Part shown: positions 35,039 to 42,765 of the stretch, in pieces
Position numbering within the stretch: position 1 is the stretch's first letter
How the letters are laid out: the number at the start of each line of letters is the position of its first letter
Assembly (NCBI GenBank): GCA_029762595.1
Contig: JARVGJ010000007.1
Location: forward strand, 1 to 64,000
Length of the DNA: 64,000 nucleotides
From: Methanolobus sp.
GTDB taxonomy: Archaea; Halobacteriota; Methanosarcinia; Methanosarcinales; Methanosarcinaceae
Direction: 5' to 3'
Notes under the pieces: generated by a model
Told to the model about the DNA's origin: nothing
The model's input: only the letters and a program-made list of their open reading frames with translations
The model's database searches: none
Position numbers and translations under genes: made by a program

Positions 35039-35662
35039 ATGGATGCAACTTCTTCTTTATTCGCAATACTATACACGTTCTCAGCTTCATTGCTCTATCC
35101 CGTGGTGATCACTCTTATACTGCTGGTGATCTTTTCACTTATGCTTATAGGTGAATTCCTCGCAGAGTATTCAAAAAGGAAAAGGGATACTGCAAATCTT
35201 GAAATGAGATGCAATGATGTCAGAGAACATATCCGTTTGCAGGATTTCCTCATGGCTGCCGAATCACTTAGGAATATAGAACAGAACTACCTGGTTACGG
35301 GTTTTGCTAAGGATGCATCAGTCCATGTGAAAAATAACATGATCCCTGCCATCGAGTGGCTCTCTCAGGACTATGAGATCAGGATGGCAAAGAGGCTGGA
35401 ACAGACAAGGATCGTTGCAACCATCTCCCCGATGCTGGGACTGATGGGAACACTCATACCTCTGGGGCCTGCCCTCATCGGGCTTTCACAGGGTGATATC
35501 GTGCAACTTGCAAACAACCTGATGATAGCCTTTGCAACAACTGTAATAGGTCTGTTTGCAGGAAGTATAGGCTACGTACTAACCCAGGTGAGGAAGAGAT
35601 GGTACTGGCAGGATATGGCTGATATAGATTACATCCTTGACAGCCTGGAGGTCGTTGAATGA
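35039..35662 (+). CDS. MotA/TolQ/ExbB-type proton channel subunit
   Basis: An inner-membrane ion-channel subunit of 207 residues. One N-terminal helix (about 10-38) is followed by a cytoplasmic region and two C-terminal helices with the family signature I-S-P-M-L-G-L-M-G-T-L-I-P-L-G-P and L-M-I-A-F-A-T-T-V-I-G-L-F-A-G. In bacteria such subunits use the proton or sodium gradient to drive mechanical work. The DUF2149 gene overlaps its stop by four bases and is likely its ExbD-like partner. The pair lies next to the S-layer genes. Confidence 0.87.
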   Translation: MDATSSLFAILYTFSASLLYPVVITLILLVIFSLMLIGEFLAEYSKRKRDTANLEMRCNDVREHIRLQDFLMAAESLRNIEQNYLVTGFAKDASVHVKNNMIPAIEWLSQDYEIRMAKRLEQTRIVATISPMLGLMGTLIPLGPALIGLSQGDIVQLANNLMIAFATTVIGLFAGSIGYVLTQVRKRWYWQDMADIDYILDSLEVVE

Positions 35663-36027
35663 GAAAGAGGACAAGATACGATCGAAGACGACTCATTGAC
35701 AATGAGGATGAGCAGAATCCCCTGACAGGGGTTGCCAATCTATTTGATATCGCCATGGTATTTTCGGTAGCATTGCTTGTGGCACTGGTCATGTCATACC
35801 AGTTGCCTGAACTGCTCAGTCCCACGGATGACATAACTATAATCAAGAATCCGGGACAACCGGACATGAAGATAATCATCAAGGAAGAGGGAAAACCTAT
35901 CGAGGTACTGAACATGACAGACCAGATAGGTGGTGGAACCGGAGAGGCTTTGGGTACGGCTTACAAACTGGCTGATGGCAGGGTCGTGTATGTGCCGGAA
36001 AATAGTGGTAATGAGAGCATTGGCTGA
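35659..36027 (+). CDS. DUF2149 protein, probable ExbD-like partner of the channel subunit
   Basis: A 122-residue protein with a basic cytoplasmic N-terminus, one membrane helix (about 29-49, N-L-F-D-I-A-M-V-F-S-V-A-L-L-V) and an extracytoplasmic domain of about 70 residues. This is the ExbD/TolR/MotB layout, with a possible ion-carrying aspartate just before the helix (N-L-F-D). DUF2149 genes regularly accompany MotA/TolQ/ExbB genes in methanogens. It is translationally coupled (ATGA overlap) to the upstream channel gene. Confidence 0.82.
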   Translation: MRKRTRYDRRRLIDNEDEQNPLTGVANLFDIAMVFSVALLVALVMSYQLPELLSPTDDITIIKNPGQPDMKIIIKEEGKPIEVLNMTDQIGGGTGEALGTAYKLADGRVVYVPENSGNESIG

Positions 36028-36558: not shown

Positions 36559-37248
36559 ATGATACAGGATTTCAAAGAAACGTTCACAGAGGTTGTCCAG
36601 GCAGTATTGCCCCTGACATTGGCTGTTCTTCTGATAATGTTTGCCATAGGCATGGATTCGGGTATGTTCCTTTCGTTTATTTCAGGTTCATTAATGGTAA
36701 TTGCAGGAATGGTACTTTTCCTCATGGGTGTTAAACTGGGAATGTTGCCAATTGGAGAGGCCATTGGTGCCGAACTCCCAAAACACAATTCTGTGCTGTT
36801 CTTAGTAGGGGTTGCATTTTTGCTCTCATTCATGGCAACAGTTGCAGAACCTGATGTCAGGGTGCTGAGCGCAATGATCGATTCGGTTTCAGATAATGGG
36901 ATCTCACGGAACGCATTGATCCTTTCCATTGCTTTTGGTGTGGGTTTCTTTGTATCGGTATCCATGCTAAGGATCGTGTACGGTGTTCCGATCAAGTACC
37001 TTCTCACAGCAGGTTATCTGATTGTCATAATGCTGTCCTTTTTCACAAACCCTGAATATATTGCCATAGCCTATGATGCAGGAGGTGTGACCACCGGACC
37101 CATGACCGTACCTGTTATCCTGGCACTGGGAATAGGAACTGTATCCGTACTGGGTGAGAAGTCAGAACTGTCAGAAGGTTTCGGACTGATCGGGCTTGCC
37201 TCTATCGGACCGATAATCAGTGTGATGTTGATGGGGGTGCTTGCTTGA
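36559..37248 (+). CDS. DUF1538 integral membrane protein, subunit A
   Basis: A 229-residue multi-helix membrane protein of the DUF1538 family, with A-E-P-D-V-R-V-L and A-Y-D-A-G-G-V-T-T-G-P-M-T-V as conserved blocks. In bacteria DUF1538 proteins often carry two such halves in one chain. Here the halves are separate genes that overlap by four bases (TTGA). The glycine-rich D-x-G-G-V-x-T-G-P motif occurs in both and could line a transport path. The operon ends with a PII-like gene, which suggests a regulated transporter of unknown substrate. GGGAG precedes the ATG. Confidence 0.85.
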   Translation: MIQDFKETFTEVVQAVLPLTLAVLLIMFAIGMDSGMFLSFISGSLMVIAGMVLFLMGVKLGMLPIGEAIGAELPKHNSVLFLVGVAFLLSFMATVAEPDVRVLSAMIDSVSDNGISRNALILSIAFGVGFFVSVSMLRIVYGVPIKYLLTAGYLIVIMLSFFTNPEYIAIAYDAGGVTTGPMTVPVILALGIGTVSVLGEKSELSEGFGLIGLASIGPIISVMLMGVLA

Positions 37249-37982
37249 GCGTTGTGGAACATGGCCAGAGTCTGATAGCTATCATTCTTGAGGTTTTCGA
37301 GGCTTTGCTGCCTTTAGTTGTGTTTTTCATCATATTCCAACTATTGTACCTTAAATTCCCTTCATCTCAACTTGTAAAACTCGGTTTGGGCATATCTATG
37401 ACAGCTGCAGGGATGATACTGTTCCTATATGGGGTCTATAATGGTTTTTTCCCTGTAGGAACCGGGATAGGAGAGTTCTTCGGCAAGTTCAGCCATCAAT
37501 GGGTATTGATACCAATTGGTTTTCTCCTTGGGTTCCTTGCAACCTATGCAGAACCAGCTGTAAGGGTATTGTGCTACCAGATAGAAAAATCATCCACCGG
37601 ATATATCCGGTCAGAGCTCATGCTCTACACATTATCCATAGGTGTTGCCGTGTTTGTTAGTATCGCAATGGCAAAGCTGGTTTATGGCATTCCCTTTATG
37701 TACATAATAATACCAGGCTACCTTATAGCCCTTATTCTGATGTGGTTTAGCGATAAAGACTTCATAGCAATTGCCTTCGATTCCGGAGGAGTTGCCACGG
37801 GTCCCATGGCTGTCACTTTCCTTATGTCAATGGCTGTTGGTGTTGCTTCTTCACACGGGAACAGGGACCCTGTTATTGACGGTTTTGGCATGATAGCATT
37901 GATTGCCCTGGCACCCATAATATTTGTAATGATCTTAGGCGTATACATGCGATATATAGGAAGGAAGGAAGAATATGAATGA
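37245..37982 (+). CDS. DUF1538 integral membrane protein, subunit B
   Basis: A 245-residue second DUF1538 half with T-Y-A-E-P-A-V-R-V-L and A-F-D-S-G-G-V-A-T-G-P-M-A-V at the same relative positions as in subunit A. It starts at a TTG that overlaps the upstream stop, and it overlaps the PII-like gene by eight bases. The two halves probably form a heterodimer equivalent to the fused bacterial protein. Confidence 0.85.
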   Translation: MSVVEHGQSLIAIILEVFEALLPLVVFFIIFQLLYLKFPSSQLVKLGLGISMTAAGMILFLYGVYNGFFPVGTGIGEFFGKFSHQWVLIPIGFLLGFLATYAEPAVRVLCYQIEKSSTGYIRSELMLYTLSIGVAVFVSIAMAKLVYGIPFMYIIIPGYLIALILMWFSDKDFIAIAFDSGGVATGPMAVTFLMSMAVGVASSHGNRDPVIDGFGMIALIALAPIIFVMILGVYMRYIGRKEEYE

Positions 37983-38376
37983 TGAAAGTAATCTGGTACT
38001 GGTAGTAACGATAGTAAAGAAAGGATGGGGTGACAAAGTTGTTAAAGCATCCCGTAAAGCAGGCGCAAAAGGTGGAACCATATTCTTTGGACGTGGTACC
38101 GGGGTCCATGAGAACAAGAGCCTCCTTGGAATGCTCATCGAGCCTGAAAAAGAGATGGTGCTCACCCTTGCAGAATCCGAAAATGCTGATGCTATCGTGG
38201 ATTTTATCAGAGAGGAGGTCAGACTGGAAAAACCAGGACGAGGGTTGGGTTTTGTAATACCTGTCAACCAGGTTTTTGGAACTGCACACATAATATGCGA
38301 CCAGGATAATAGCTGTAAGCTCCACATACTGGAAGAAGAGGAAGGGGCAGAAGAAAAAGAAGAAGAGAAAGTTTAA
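37975..38376 (+). CDS. PII-like (GlnB-fold) regulator of the DUF1538 transporter
   Basis: A 133-residue protein with the GlnB/PII fold: V-V-K-A-S-R-K-A-G-A-K-G-G-T at the end of the first beta-alpha unit, a short T-loop (F-F-G-R-G-T-G-V-H-E-N-K), and the PII-type P-G-R-G-L-G-F-V. The uridylylated tyrosine of GlnB is not seen. A glutamate-rich tail of about 15 residues follows. PII-like proteins bind nucleotides and gate membrane transporters, as with AmtB-GlnK, so it probably controls the two DUF1538 subunits. Confidence 0.85.
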   Translation: MNDESNLVLVVTIVKKGWGDKVVKASRKAGAKGGTIFFGRGTGVHENKSLLGMLIEPEKEMVLTLAESENADAIVDFIREEVRLEKPGRGLGFVIPVNQVFGTAHIICDQDNSCKLHILEEEEGAEEKEEEKV

Positions 38377-38409: not shown

Positions 38410-39840
38410 CTATTTCCGGCCGAAATACAATAGCCCAAGCCCACCCCAGAATAACATGGCAACGGCTGCAAAGATAAGCACAGGCAGCGGACCGAAGTAG
38501 AATATAAGAGGGACAGAGGCAGCTGTGAAGATCCCACCTCCCACGATAGGTTCAAATAGGAGTTGCTTATAGCCAAAACCTTCCATGGCCGGGGATCTGT
38601 TACCCGGGTCAGCGATTCTCATAAGGAGCAGGCCACTTGCTGTCATACCCATGGATTGTCCGAAATTCCCTATACTTCTTTCAAACCAGTAGGAAGGCAT
38701 CATCTTTGGACCCAGGAACAGGAATGCCACCACGTTCCACACAATACCCACTGTTGCAAGGATCAAAAAAGGTATAAGGTTATTCCCGATCACGGTCAAT
38801 GAGAGTGTTGCTATTGCACTGGTTATCAGTATATCCAGCGACAATCCCTGTATCCTCATCATGAGGTCACGGTCCAGGGTCTGGTGTACGTCGAACCTGT
38901 CAAGGAAAAGCTGGAGAAGGATGCCCCCTATCATTGCCATTGGAAAGAGCGGTATGTGGGACAGAAGGTATACATCTGTAGCCTGGCCCCAGGTTATTTC
39001 CTCTATCAGAACAAAGGCCTGGAGTATAAGATAGCCTATTCCGATGGCAACCCCTACATATGCAAAATGGAGTGAAAGAGGTTCAATGGACTCAGGTCTT
39101 GTGGTGATCTTGCCGGCAGACTCCCTGGAATCAAAATCAATTATACCGCTCTGGTATCTCTCATCAAGGGATATATGGTCCTCATTTGTCAATACCTCCG
39201 TTTTACCTTTCCTTATTCCATAATTCAGGAGTACGATCCCAAAAACGACACCAAAGAGGATTCCCACTGTGGCAAGACCAAGCGCCAGATCTGCTGCATC
39301 TGAAAAACCCAGCTCTTCAAAAGTTGATGCCATGCCGGCTGCAGTACCGTGTCCGCCTTCAAAGGATATCTCAATAAGGGCACCTGCCATCGGGTCTATC
39401 CCGAAGAATGGCGTCAGGATGAGAAGTGTCACCATTATTCCAAATACATACTGACCCCATGCTATGGTCTGTCCGTGAGCTACCTGCGGACCTGCCAGAA
39501 GCCATATATCCCTAATACCAGGTATCTTTTTTCCCAGGAAGAGTGTGGCAAATATTATATTGATAAAGAGTCCGGGAAGGGTTGCCCATGCATCAAACAT
39601 CTCTGCCGGGAATAGACCGCCAGCTAGGAAAGAGTCATTAAAACCTGCCCATGACACCATGTTACCAAGCAACTCCGGGCCAAGGAAAAGGCCAAGGAAG
39701 CCTCCTATAAGCGAACTTGGGATAAAGAGCCTTTGAAGCGGAGGGGACATAACCCTGATCCATTTCCCAAGCAGCAGGACAATACCAAGCACAAGAAAAC
39801 TCATTCCTATCATGGAAGCGGACATTGGAGCAAACCTCAT
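38410..39840 (-). CDS. gltS: Sodium/glutamate symporter (GltS, ESS family)
   Basis: A 476-residue membrane transporter with about ten or more helices. The ESS signature G-G-H-G-T-A-A-G-M-A is present near residue 160, and the second-half repeat has R-S-I-G-N-F-G-Q-S-M-G. A hydrophilic loop of about 60 residues (about 210-265) separates the halves. It probably imports glutamate with Na+. Glutamate also serves as an osmolyte in such methanogens. It is convergent with the PII-like gene, 33 bases apart, and has its own promoter region at 39841 onward. Confidence 0.88.
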   Translation of the reverse strand: MRFAPMSASMIGMSFLVLGIVLLLGKWIRVMSPPLQRLFIPSSLIGGFLGLFLGPELLGNMVSWAGFNDSFLAGGLFPAEMFDAWATLPGLFINIIFATLFLGKKIPGIRDIWLLAGPQVAHGQTIAWGQYVFGIMVTLLILTPFFGIDPMAGALIEISFEGGHGTAAGMASTFEELGFSDAADLALGLATVGILFGVVFGIVLLNYGIRKGKTEVLTNEDHISLDERYQSGIIDFDSRESAGKITTRPESIEPLSLHFAYVGVAIGIGYLILQAFVLIEEITWGQATDVYLLSHIPLFPMAMIGGILLQLFLDRFDVHQTLDRDLMMRIQGLSLDILITSAIATLSLTVIGNNLIPFLILATVGIVWNVVAFLFLGPKMMPSYWFERSIGNFGQSMGMTASGLLLMRIADPGNRSPAMEGFGYKQLLFEPIVGGGIFTAASVPLIFYFGPLPVLIFAAVAMLFWGGLGLLYFGRK

Positions 39841-40119: not shown

Positions 40120-42765
40120 ATGGCAGAGGAGCAGTGGTGTGGCATCCCTTCAGAGGATGTGTTTACTTTACTCAACAGTCATCCTGATGGTCTGAGCCAG
40201 GATGAAGCAGAAATAAGACTTACAAAGGATGGATACAATGAAGTATCCGCCAAACCTGAACATGGACCAATATATCGTTTCCTCAAACAGTTTGCAAGTC
40301 CCTTGATATACCTGCTTATCGGAGCGGCTGTTGTGGTATTCTTCCTGGAGCATTATGTAGATACTGTCGTTATACTGTTAGTAGTGCTTGCAAACGCCAT
40401 AATAGGTTTCATACAGGAAGGAAAGGCACAGAACGCACTTGAGTCCCTGTCAAAGCTGCTTGTACCGGAAGCAAGAGTGATAAGGGGTGGTATGAGTTCT
40501 GTGCTTCAAAGCAGGGAGATCGTTGTCGGTGATGTAGTGCTGCTGGAAGCCGGGGACAGAGTTCCGGCTGACATGAGACTGTTCTATACAAAGAACCTGA
40601 GAGCAGATGAATCCATACTTACAGGTGAGTCCGTGCCGGTGGAAAAGAAAGAGCACACCATCGACACCGGATGTATGGCATTTGCAGACCAGAAGAACGT
40701 GTGCTTTGCCGGTACCCTGATAAACCAGGGACAGGGGAGAGGCGTTGTGGTGGCCACAGGGAGTAAGACCCAGATCGGCCGGATATCCGAATTCATCAGG
40801 GAAAGTAAGGAGATGTCCACACCCCTTTTGCGTAAGCTATCACATATGAGTGTAATACTGTCTGTAGTAATACTTGTCATATCCGCCCTGACATTTGCCG
40901 TCGGCCTGCTCAGAGGATTTGAGACCGTAGAGATCTTCATGGCTTCTGTAAGCCTTGCTGTTGCTGCAATACCCGAAGGTTTGCCTGCAGTCATTACTAT
41001 CTCCATGGCTATCGGAGTTAACAGGATGGCTGCAAGGAATACCATCATCCGTACGGTGCCAGCGGTGGAAACTCTTGGCAGTGCCACTGTTATCTGTTCA
41101 GACAAGACCGGCACCCTTACAAGGAACCAGATGACAGTGACCCAGGCCTATGCAGCCGGAAAACTGTATGAACTGACAGGTACAGGTTATGTCCCAGAAG
41201 GGGCTTTCCTGCTGGATGGGGCAAAAGTTGACCCACTTGAGAATAAAGCCCTTGTGGAAACTCTCAGGGCAGGAGTGCTGTGTAATGATGCTTCTTTCAG
41301 GGGCGTTGATAATATAGACGGAGACCCCACAGAGGGTGCGCTTTTGATCTCAGGTATGAAAGCCGGGAAATTCTACCTTCCAAGGAAGGATATCGTTCCC
41401 TTTGAGCCTGAAGAAAGGTTTATGGCAACCCTGCATGAGAAAGAGGATGGCTCAAAGGTCATTTACGTAAAAGGTTCACCTGAAAAGATCCTGAGTATGT
41501 GTATCTCCCAGTTTAACGGAAAGGACACAGGACCAGTAGATACGGAAGGAATCGAACATGCTGCCGAACAGATGGCTTCCAACGCCTTGAGAGTTTTGGG
41601 TATGGCATACAAGGATGTGCCCGGGGATGTTGAAAGGATCGAATCGGAGGATATAAAGGACCTTGTTTTCACCGGCCTGCAGGGTATGATGGACCCTCCC
41701 AGAGATGGGGTGATGGAAGCTATCGAAAAATGCAAGACAGCAGGTATCCGTGTGATAATGATAACAGGGGACCATCTGAAAACAGCTTATGCCATAGCCA
41801 CGAAGATAGGGATAGAAACAGAAGGTGCCCTTTCCGGAAAGGATATTGAGGAAATGTCCGATGAGCAACTGAAAGAGGTTCTCAAAAAGGTATCTGTGTT
41901 TGCAAGGACGTCGCCTGGTGACAAGCTGAGAGTTGTAAAACTCCTCAAGGAGATGGGCGAGGTTGTCGCTGTGACAGGAGACGGTATCAATGATGCACCT
42001 GCCCTGAAGACCGCAGACATCGGCATCTCCATGGGTATTACAGGTACAGAGGTTGCAAAAGAAGCTTCCAATATGGTACTGGCAGATGATAATTTCTCCT
42101 CGATAGTTGCAGCCATCGAGGAAGGCAGGGATGTCTACAGCAAGATACAGAAGATCCTGATATGGACACTGCCCACAAACGGAGGACAGGCTTTGTCTAT
42201 TGTATTTGCCGTGATCCTGGGTTTAACACTGCCTCTGGTACCCCTGCAGATACTGTGGCTTAACACGGTCACAGCCATCTGCCTTGGTGTTCCCATAACC
42301 ATGGAGCCAAAGGAAAGGGGCATACTGGAAAGGCCACCCCGGCCTCCAAAAGAACCAATACTTACCCCACTCATCAAAAGAAGGGTGATATTCGTCTCAC
42401 TGCTCATTGTTGCAGGTGCATATCTAAACTTTTTCACGAAACTGGAAAATGGAGGAAGCCTTGACGCTGCACGTACCATCGCGCTTAACACCATAGTATT
42501 CTTCCAGATATTCTACCTGTTCAACTCCAAGTCAATGTACGAATATGTTTTCAGGGACATCATGTCAAACAGGATAATGCTGCTGGGAATAGCCATGGTC
42601 CTGGTACTCCAAATGATAATAACCTATGTACCCGCAATAAACTCCATCTTTTCCACAGCCCCCATCCAGGCAGCGGACTGGCTGATGATAGTAGTCGTTT
42701 CCAGCTCGGTGTTCTTCCTGATAGAGATCGAGAAATACCTTCATAAGAAAGGGTATTTCCCATGA
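40120..42765 (+). CDS. P-type ATPase, type IIA-like, with altered cation site
   Basis: An 881-residue P-type ATPase in the cell membrane. Seen are the actuator-loop L-T-G-E-S, M4 A-I-P-E-G-L-P-A, the phosphorylation motif DKTGTLT with D328, the hinge TGDGINDAPALK and six C-terminal helices. By overall motif use it groups with the SERCA/PMR1-like type IIA pumps. However, M5 has T-N-G-G-Q (Q690) where SERCA has its glutamate, and M6 has L-N-T-V-T-A (N715, A719) where SERCA has N and D. Calcium transport is therefore doubtful, and a proton or another cation is possible. It is a single gene, with neighbours unrelated. Confidence 0.9.
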   Translation: MAEEQWCGIPSEDVFTLLNSHPDGLSQDEAEIRLTKDGYNEVSAKPEHGPIYRFLKQFASPLIYLLIGAAVVVFFLEHYVDTVVILLVVLANAIIGFIQEGKAQNALESLSKLLVPEARVIRGGMSSVLQSREIVVGDVVLLEAGDRVPADMRLFYTKNLRADESILTGESVPVEKKEHTIDTGCMAFADQKNVCFAGTLINQGQGRGVVVATGSKTQIGRISEFIRESKEMSTPLLRKLSHMSVILSVVILVISALTFAVGLLRGFETVEIFMASVSLAVAAIPEGLPAVITISMAIGVNRMAARNTIIRTVPAVETLGSATVICSDKTGTLTRNQMTVTQAYAAGKLYELTGTGYVPEGAFLLDGAKVDPLENKALVETLRAGVLCNDASFRGVDNIDGDPTEGALLISGMKAGKFYLPRKDIVPFEPEERFMATLHEKEDGSKVIYVKGSPEKILSMCISQFNGKDTGPVDTEGIEHAAEQMASNALRVLGMAYKDVPGDVERIESEDIKDLVFTGLQGMMDPPRDGVMEAIEKCKTAGIRVIMITGDHLKTAYAIATKIGIETEGALSGKDIEEMSDEQLKEVLKKVSVFARTSPGDKLRVVKLLKEMGEVVAVTGDGINDAPALKTADIGISMGITGTEVAKEASNMVLADDNFSSIVAAIEEGRDVYSKIQKILIWTLPTNGGQALSIVFAVILGLTLPLVPLQILWLNTVTAICLGVPITMEPKERGILERPPRPPKEPILTPLIKRRVIFVSLLIVAGAYLNFFTKLENGGSLDAARTIALNTIVFFQIFYLFNSKSMYEYVFRDIMSNRIMLLGIAMVLVLQMIITYVPAINSIFSTAPIQAADWLMIVVVSSSVFFLIEIEKYLHKKGYFP

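Follow-up and report, generated by a model that had tools for sequence, protein, structure and literature searches.

The only DUF1538 proteins for which we found a functional study are UmpA and UmpB of Halomonas zhaodongensis, which according to the available parts of that paper act as a Na+(Li+,K+)/H+ antiporter in everted vesicles and co-immunoprecipitate as a heterodimer (PMC5484666). The pair was active in E. coli from a cloned 4.2-kb fragment in which umpB is the last listed ORF, and UmpB alone gave better NaCl tolerance than UmpA alone (PMC5484666). DUF1538 is also listed among pH-adaptation genes in a 2026 machine-learning paper (PMC13255231), and PII terms are absent from the available parts of both texts. 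For transporters controlled by PII proteins, a 2023 review, in the sections available, names Amt, Nrt, Urt and SbtA, describes direct gating in the known linked pairs GlnK-AmtB and SbtB-SbtA, and states that the use of PII appears restricted to transporters able to be trimers (PMC10710835).

We analysed a window of 64,000 nucleotides from a Methanolobus contig, in which a preliminary description had placed three overlapping genes, two for DUF1538 proteins and one for a PII-like protein; the positions given were exact to the base and all three products have Pfam matches. The genes, called A, B and P here (Table 1), encode proteins of 229, 245 (from a TTG start) and 133 amino acids and overlap by 4 bases (A/B) and 8 bases (B/P). 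A and B are about 40% identical, scored 237.7 and 244.8 bits respectively against the DUF1538 profile (cut-off 22.6) and both carry the D-x-G-G-V-x-T-G-P block that had been pointed out. P gave a weak but passing match to the P-II family (PF00543, E-value 9.7e-9, 35.9 bits with a cut-off of 25) and contains no tyrosine at all, in agreement with the description of a GlnB-fold protein without the modified tyrosine. The term “half-size” used for A and B suits the paired genes found here; otherwise it depends on the viewpoint, since the family occurs as two genes, as one fused gene and as a true single gene.

Table 1. Positions of the module, its main sequence features and one neighbouring gene in the window
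Feature	Position	Strand	Evidence
DUF1538 protein A, predicted N-in/C-out, one putative transporter half	36559..37248	+	Pfam PF07556 1.1e-70; positive-inside count
Protein A E97-P98, invariant EP, break in broken helix TM3	36847..36852	+	Alignments, fused-relative model, conservation E100/P100
Protein A DAGGVTTGP block, break in TM6	37075..37101	+	Sequence; conservation D100 G100 T98 T98 G100; model break
DUF1538 protein B, predicted N-out/C-in, charged cytosolic tail	37245..37982	+	Pfam PF07556 7.1e-73; positive-inside count opposite to A
Protein B E103-P104, break in TM3	37551..37556	+	Alignment, conservation
Protein B DSGGVATGP block, break in TM6	37779..37805	+	Sequence, conservation
PII-like candidate regulator P, acidic C-terminal tail	37975..38376	+	Pfam PF00543 35.9 bits; structure model
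P signature GRGTGVHE, base of shortened T-loop	38089..38112	+	57-row alignments
P B-loop LEKPGRGLGF, without K90 equivalent	38224..38253	+	57-row alignment
P-type cation ATPase, nearby context outside the operon	40120..42765	+	Pfam

The window pair resembles UmpAB in consisting of paired DUF1538 membrane proteins with seven transmembrane (TM) segments each, encoded by overlapping genes (NF041627/NF041628). Against the NCBIfam UmpA/UmpB equivalog models (cut-offs 490/500), A scored 132.5/90.9 bits and B 114.4/89.5 bits, far under the cut-offs, and the window pair probably derives from a separate duplication (see below). The best UmpA-model score in the proteobacterial class, 408 bits in genome G338, is also under the 490 cut-off; the gene order there is DUF1538-DUF1538-P-CBS, and these closest proteobacterial relatives share the PII-like gene next door with our locus. 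The two systems further differ in that proteobacterial loci add a CBS gene and that the Halomonas paper, in its available parts, makes no mention of a PII gene.

The module is flanked upstream by an ExbB-like/DUF2149 pair and downstream by a GltS-like gene and the P-type cation ATPase. The upstream pair (35039-36027, + strand), a MotA/TolQ/ExbB-like gene followed by a DUF2149 gene, lies just downstream of S-layer and CARDB genes and has the appearance of an archaeal ExbB/ExbD-like energiser pair near cell surface genes. Directly adjoining the module on the other side (38410-39840, - strand) is a sodium/glutamate symporter-like protein (PF03616, 55 bits), with no NCBIfam match at the threshold used.

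Linkage of the PII-like gene with DUF1538 across genomes

A scan of a collection of named genomes yielded 80 DUF1538 loci from archaea, Bacillota, Balneolota, Chloroflexota and Pseudomonadota, the best matches to the trio being in Methanolobus genomes. P was encoded on the DUF1538 strand in 77 of these loci and no more than 300 bases away in 76; the median distance between the two domains was 30 bases. The three loci missing P comprised two at contig or locus ends (L090 and L116) and one whose genome has P elsewhere (L132). An order kept in 77 of 80 loci is not a chance arrangement.

The PII-like profiles derive from neighbours of DUF1538, so selection accounts for part of the adjacency in those loci, and genome-wide searches are therefore the fair test of linkage. 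In the phylum of the window, 31 of 196 genomes had a DUF1538 match above the cut-off, and the same 31 genomes scored at least 88 bits for the P family (the two lists were matched by reading); a 32nd genome (G077) had a DUF1538 match below the cut-off, and in genomes without DUF1538 canonical PII proteins reached at most about 29 bits against the P family. The two genes were adjacent in 30 of the 31, the exception being G204, where they are 2.7 kb apart. In this locus (L219, 1305-5774), the roughly 2.7 kb between P and DUF1538 hold, as if by insertion, a frame which we take to be TnpB-like and an acetyltransferase-like one. In the proteobacterial class, DUF1538 was detected in 90 of 274 genomes and P in all 90 (E-value 2.5e-11 or better), these lists too being matched by reading; P was seen in 29 of 30 loci from this class, the remaining one (L168) stopping at a contig end, and a CBS-domain gene followed P in 20 of 20 regions. 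In these regions the filter applied masked one DUF1538 gene in each of L237, L238 and L242, and in L238 also the P gene. The phylum of the L117 genome had DUF1538 in 8 of 198 genomes with P beside it in 8 of 8, two of these P matches being weak (41 and 51 bits). Finally, in the phylum of the L124 genome, 67 of 199 genomes had DUF1538, and P was beside it in all 30 loci examined, which were drawn from the 67 positive genomes with four more fetched (L291-L293 and L301).

P is thus a near-obligate partner of DUF1538 in both archaea and bacteria, and A, B and P almost certainly constitute one module. The proposal that DUF1538 has a dedicated PII-like regulator is thereby strongly supported by gene linkage; the accompanying idea of nucleotide sensing like that of GlnK did not hold as stated (see below). 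Two genomes of the 274-genome class (G347 and G440) encode P without a DUF1538 match. In G347, the lone P gene (L222) sits with a CBS gene and an antiporter with PF00999 and TrkA_N domains, a context which suggests that P can serve another antiporter; the lone P gene of G440 lies at L221. Within Methanolobus, DUF1538 was present in only 11 of 27 genomes, so the module is dispensable. One genome of the genus (G026) has two copies of the pair with equal scores (C1:20779-22737 and 793038-794347), one of which has an extra DUF1538 fragment upstream.

The gene forms varied. A and B were fused in 8 of 80 loci, P was in tandem or doubled in 22 of 80, and a true single-gene DUF1538 accompanied P in seven loci (L217, L218, L020, L291, L292, L293 and L281), the L281 genome also having a fused form. 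Two genomes (L294 in G542 and L295 in G625) have frames of 710-736 amino acids in which the second DUF1538 match is split or interrupted, followed by frames of 374-386 amino acids with several weak PII-like matches. Elsewhere (L023 in G034) a fused DUF1538 protein adjoins a protein of 285 amino acids with a PII-like C-terminal part, a long Glu/Lys-rich linker and an N-terminal part that is PII-like by eye. Cation/proton antiporters with PF00999 and TrkA domains occurred within 15 of the 80 DUF1538 loci and a related cation P-type ATPase near 7 of 80, neighbours that point to the same function as the antiport of UmpAB; the recurrent neighbours listed for these loci included no recognised nitrogen gene.

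A distinct family of PII-like proteins

A structural model of P (pLDDT 80.3) had as its best Foldseek match the PII/GlnK structure 2j9d (E-value 9.5e-8) and aligned to 1hwu with a VIA Z of 11.2 (rmsd 2.6, 90 aligned). Comparisons with SbtB, CutA, PstA and PII were tied (VIA Z 10.3-11.2 for all).

We then compared 57 PII-like rows with four canonical PIIs of the same genome, whose four other PF00543 proteins score 81-111 bits. The stretch from G37 to K58 has 16 residues between these positions in all 57 P rows and 21, 21, 17 and 30 in the canonical ones, which makes the T-loop of P shorter by five residues than in two of them, by 14 than in a third and by one than in the fourth. T29 (57/57), K58 (55/57) and the B-loop glycines are kept. 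In contrast, none of the 57 P rows retains Q39, K90 or R101 (the last always being Gly), and 52 of the 57 have lost R103; among the four canonical rows, R101 is likewise absent from one or two. None of the 57 rows has a tyrosine at the T-loop Tyr51 column, which two to three archaeal canonical rows lack as well, and a GRGTGIHE signature was specific to the P family in this comparison. On these alignments, P is a family of its own, with a short T-loop and without the modified Tyr, K90, R101 and, mostly, R103.

Nucleotide binding in methanogen GlnKs uses residues of the Q39, K90, R101 and R103 type (PMC8395244, as far as its available parts show). Because these pocket residues are missing from P, sensing of ATP, ADP or 2-oxoglutarate cannot be assumed. 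P may have a ligand site, which should not be equated with the ATP/2-oxoglutarate site, and we put the chance that its ligand is a nucleotide of any kind at slightly under even.

The module resembles AmtB-GlnK in having a transporter gene beside a gene of the PII family and a partner of PII fold. It differs in that Amt is unrelated in sequence and trimeric and that GlnK keeps Tyr51, K90, R101 and R103 (PMC8395244, in its available parts). With SbtA-SbtB it shares an arrangement of a putatively ion-coupled transporter and a small PII-like partner, P aligning to SbtB with a VIA Z of 10.9 (2.1 A, 81 aligned), tied with PII. SbtA is a bicarbonate transporter, no sequence match was found between P and SbtB, and P gave no evidence of an R-loop of the SbtB kind.

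Topology, structure and origin of the DUF1538 pairs

A naturally fused A-B protein of a Balneolales genome (locus L127) modelled well (pLDDT 89.2, pTM 0.88). The model has seven helices per half, of which TM3 is interrupted at the invariant EP and TM6 at the DxGGVxTGP block, the latter being the likely substrate-site break. A Foldseek search against known structures returned no match at an E-value of 0.001, and VIA gave nothing above background, its best row being NCX_Mj (Z 5.0, rmsd 6.9, 171 aligned), a score that we did not take as evidence of kinship; dicarboxylate, nucleoside and amino acid transporters were among the other weak rows. A search of PDB chains with the DUF1538 profile gave no match at an E-value of 10. 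We therefore make no claim about the fold.

The positive-inside rule orients membrane proteins by loop charge. Using the helix borders of the fusion model, we counted K+R per loop in 64 of the 80 loci plus the window, after dropping fused, partial, broken and multi-copy loci. The N-terminal, 2-3, 4-5 and 6-7 loops had 6.63 K+R against 1.22 for the 1-2, 3-4, 5-6 and C-terminal loops in A, and 3.49 against 7.26 in B. The excess was on the first set of loops in 65 of 65 A proteins and on the opposite set in 60 of 65 B proteins, with 5 ties, both signs being as predicted in 60 of 65 pairs. Proteobacterial pairs followed the same pattern in 17 of 18 and 16 of 18 cases (both signs in 16 of 18), as did fusions in 10 of 10. 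Given these opposite charges, A is predicted to be N-in/C-out and B N-out/C-in, and the two are very probably antiparallel.

Paired members with opposite charge bias are also found in SMR, Fluc and DUF606, dual-topology or antiparallel families with single, paired and fused forms; DUF1538 is a different family, with seven TM segments per unit and a linked PII-like gene. The seven single-gene forms had loop-charge differences of +2, +3, +4, +1, -2, +2 and 0, the first three being nearer A than B; this near balance is no more than suggestive of a dual topology.

In a maximum-likelihood tree of 70 rows, the A and B proteins of archaea, Bacillota and Balneolota formed two clades, while proteobacterial A and B of the UmpA/B type grouped together (100/100) near the single-gene forms, with the window proteins outside this clade; the tree was built without the Halomonas UmpA and UmpB proteins themselves and its long branches call for caution. 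Forcing all A rows together cost 74.8 lnL and was rejected (p-AU 0.00032). The same pattern was seen in an 87-row tree, where two long rows (L250_A and L250_B) fell apart and the number of duplications is uncertain at that point. With a single shared A/B duplication rejected, proteobacterial UmpA/UmpB-type proteins are not one-to-one orthologues of the window pair. The paired forms may have originated on two or more occasions, or the proteobacterial pair may have been homogenised by gene conversion; under both scenarios the window pair lies outside one-to-one orthology with the UmpA/UmpB type.

A candidate PII-gated antiporter and its alternatives

We moderately favour a reading in which A and B form an antiparallel cation/proton antiporter gated by its dedicated PII-like protein. 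A and B would be halves of inverted topology that together form, in antiparallel orientation, a Na+(K+)/H+ antiporter of the UmpAB/DUF1538 family. Two helices would be broken in each half, at EP and at DxGGVxTGP, and the acidic residues of these motifs are the likely place where ions and protons bind. An oligomer of P would dock on the cytosolic loops (2-3, 4-5 and 6-7 of A; 1-2, 3-4, 5-6 and the C-terminal tail of B), and a small ligand bound to P would raise or lower the rate of antiport. P would be a modulator and not a required subunit: the active Halomonas fragment ends with umpB, so P would not be needed for activity and a modulating role is more likely. The better tolerance given by UmpB alone counts against a strict two-half transporter, which does not predict it. 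Further points against our reading are the low UmpA/UmpB scores of A and B, their place outside the UmpA/UmpB-type clade, the lack of a confident structural match to any antiporter, the nucleotide residues missing from P and the presence of DUF1538 in fewer than half of the Methanolobus genomes.

For the transport step, the substrate had been described as unknown, a statement that is outdated at the level of the family by the work on UmpAB, the ion in this organism being one that we infer from that distant relative. Antiport of monovalent cations and protons by A and B is reasonably likely. The alternative that they carry something else (an anion, a metabolite or a divalent ion), with the Halomonas result not transferable, gains from the separate duplication, from the distance to UmpAB (132.5 and 90.9 bits against 490 and 500) and from the transporters of other substrates among the weak structural rows; we nevertheless think it rather doubtful, because genes for cation antiporters and cation ATPases are repeatedly found nearby, the proteobacterial clade has the same invariant acidic EP and D-blocks and DUF1538 is listed among pH-adaptation genes in the available parts of PMC13255231.

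Direct gating of A and B by P is probable. P could instead be a co-transcribed protein that reports transport to other targets, or act on expression, without gating A and B. Linkage is not in itself proof of binding, P occurs without DUF1538 in two genomes, and in one of them its neighbours are another antiporter and a CBS gene, so P may serve several partners; the near-perfect co-occurrence of P and DUF1538 over four groups of genomes and the direct gating in GlnK-AmtB and SbtB-SbtA, as described in the sections available of PMC10710835, make such a role unlikely. A further possibility, an ordinary GlnK that senses nitrogen and works on a DUF1538 transporter, would fit the PII fold of P and the retention of T29, K58 and the B-loop glycines. 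This we regard as highly improbable and have discarded as the main reading, given the altered pocket residues, the four canonical PF00543 proteins elsewhere in the genome and recurrent neighbours among which no nitrogen gene was identified.

Extending the PII-gated antiporter to the whole family, we tentatively suggest, at rather less than even probability, that all DUF1538 transporters are PII-gated, that oppositely oriented pairs evolved on at least two independent occasions from an ancestral dual-topology cation/proton antiporter encoded by one gene and accompanied by a PII-like protein, and that P acts as a trimer on a two-fold, non-trimeric antiporter, responding to a ligand different from the canonical ATP/2-oxoglutarate and, in proteobacteria, working together with the CBS protein.

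The antiport activity of DUF1538 is already known from UmpAB; we found no description of its PII-like partner, of the opposed orientation of the two proteins or of a repeated duplication in the open-licence literature that we searched, subscription papers and preprints being outside the search. Two candidate papers were set aside: a Borrelia paper containing “PII-like” and “genomic context” has an unrelated membrane protein as its subject, and the sole PII-like mention in a Heliorestis paper is a reference title.

Cells set the pH and salt balance of the cytoplasm through Na+ and K+/H+ antiporters, and the near-constant presence of P beside one antiporter family, seemingly unmentioned in the sole functional paper found, suggests that an overlooked regulator controls this balance. 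If the transporter is a two-fold pair, P and DUF1538 would be an exception to the restriction of PII to trimers; if the proposal is true, PII control would extend past the trimeric transporters named in the 2023 review (PMC10710835, in its available sections) and a new branch of PII signalling would serve ion and pH homeostasis. The single, paired and fused forms of DUF1538 offer a natural series for the evolution of antiparallel membrane proteins.
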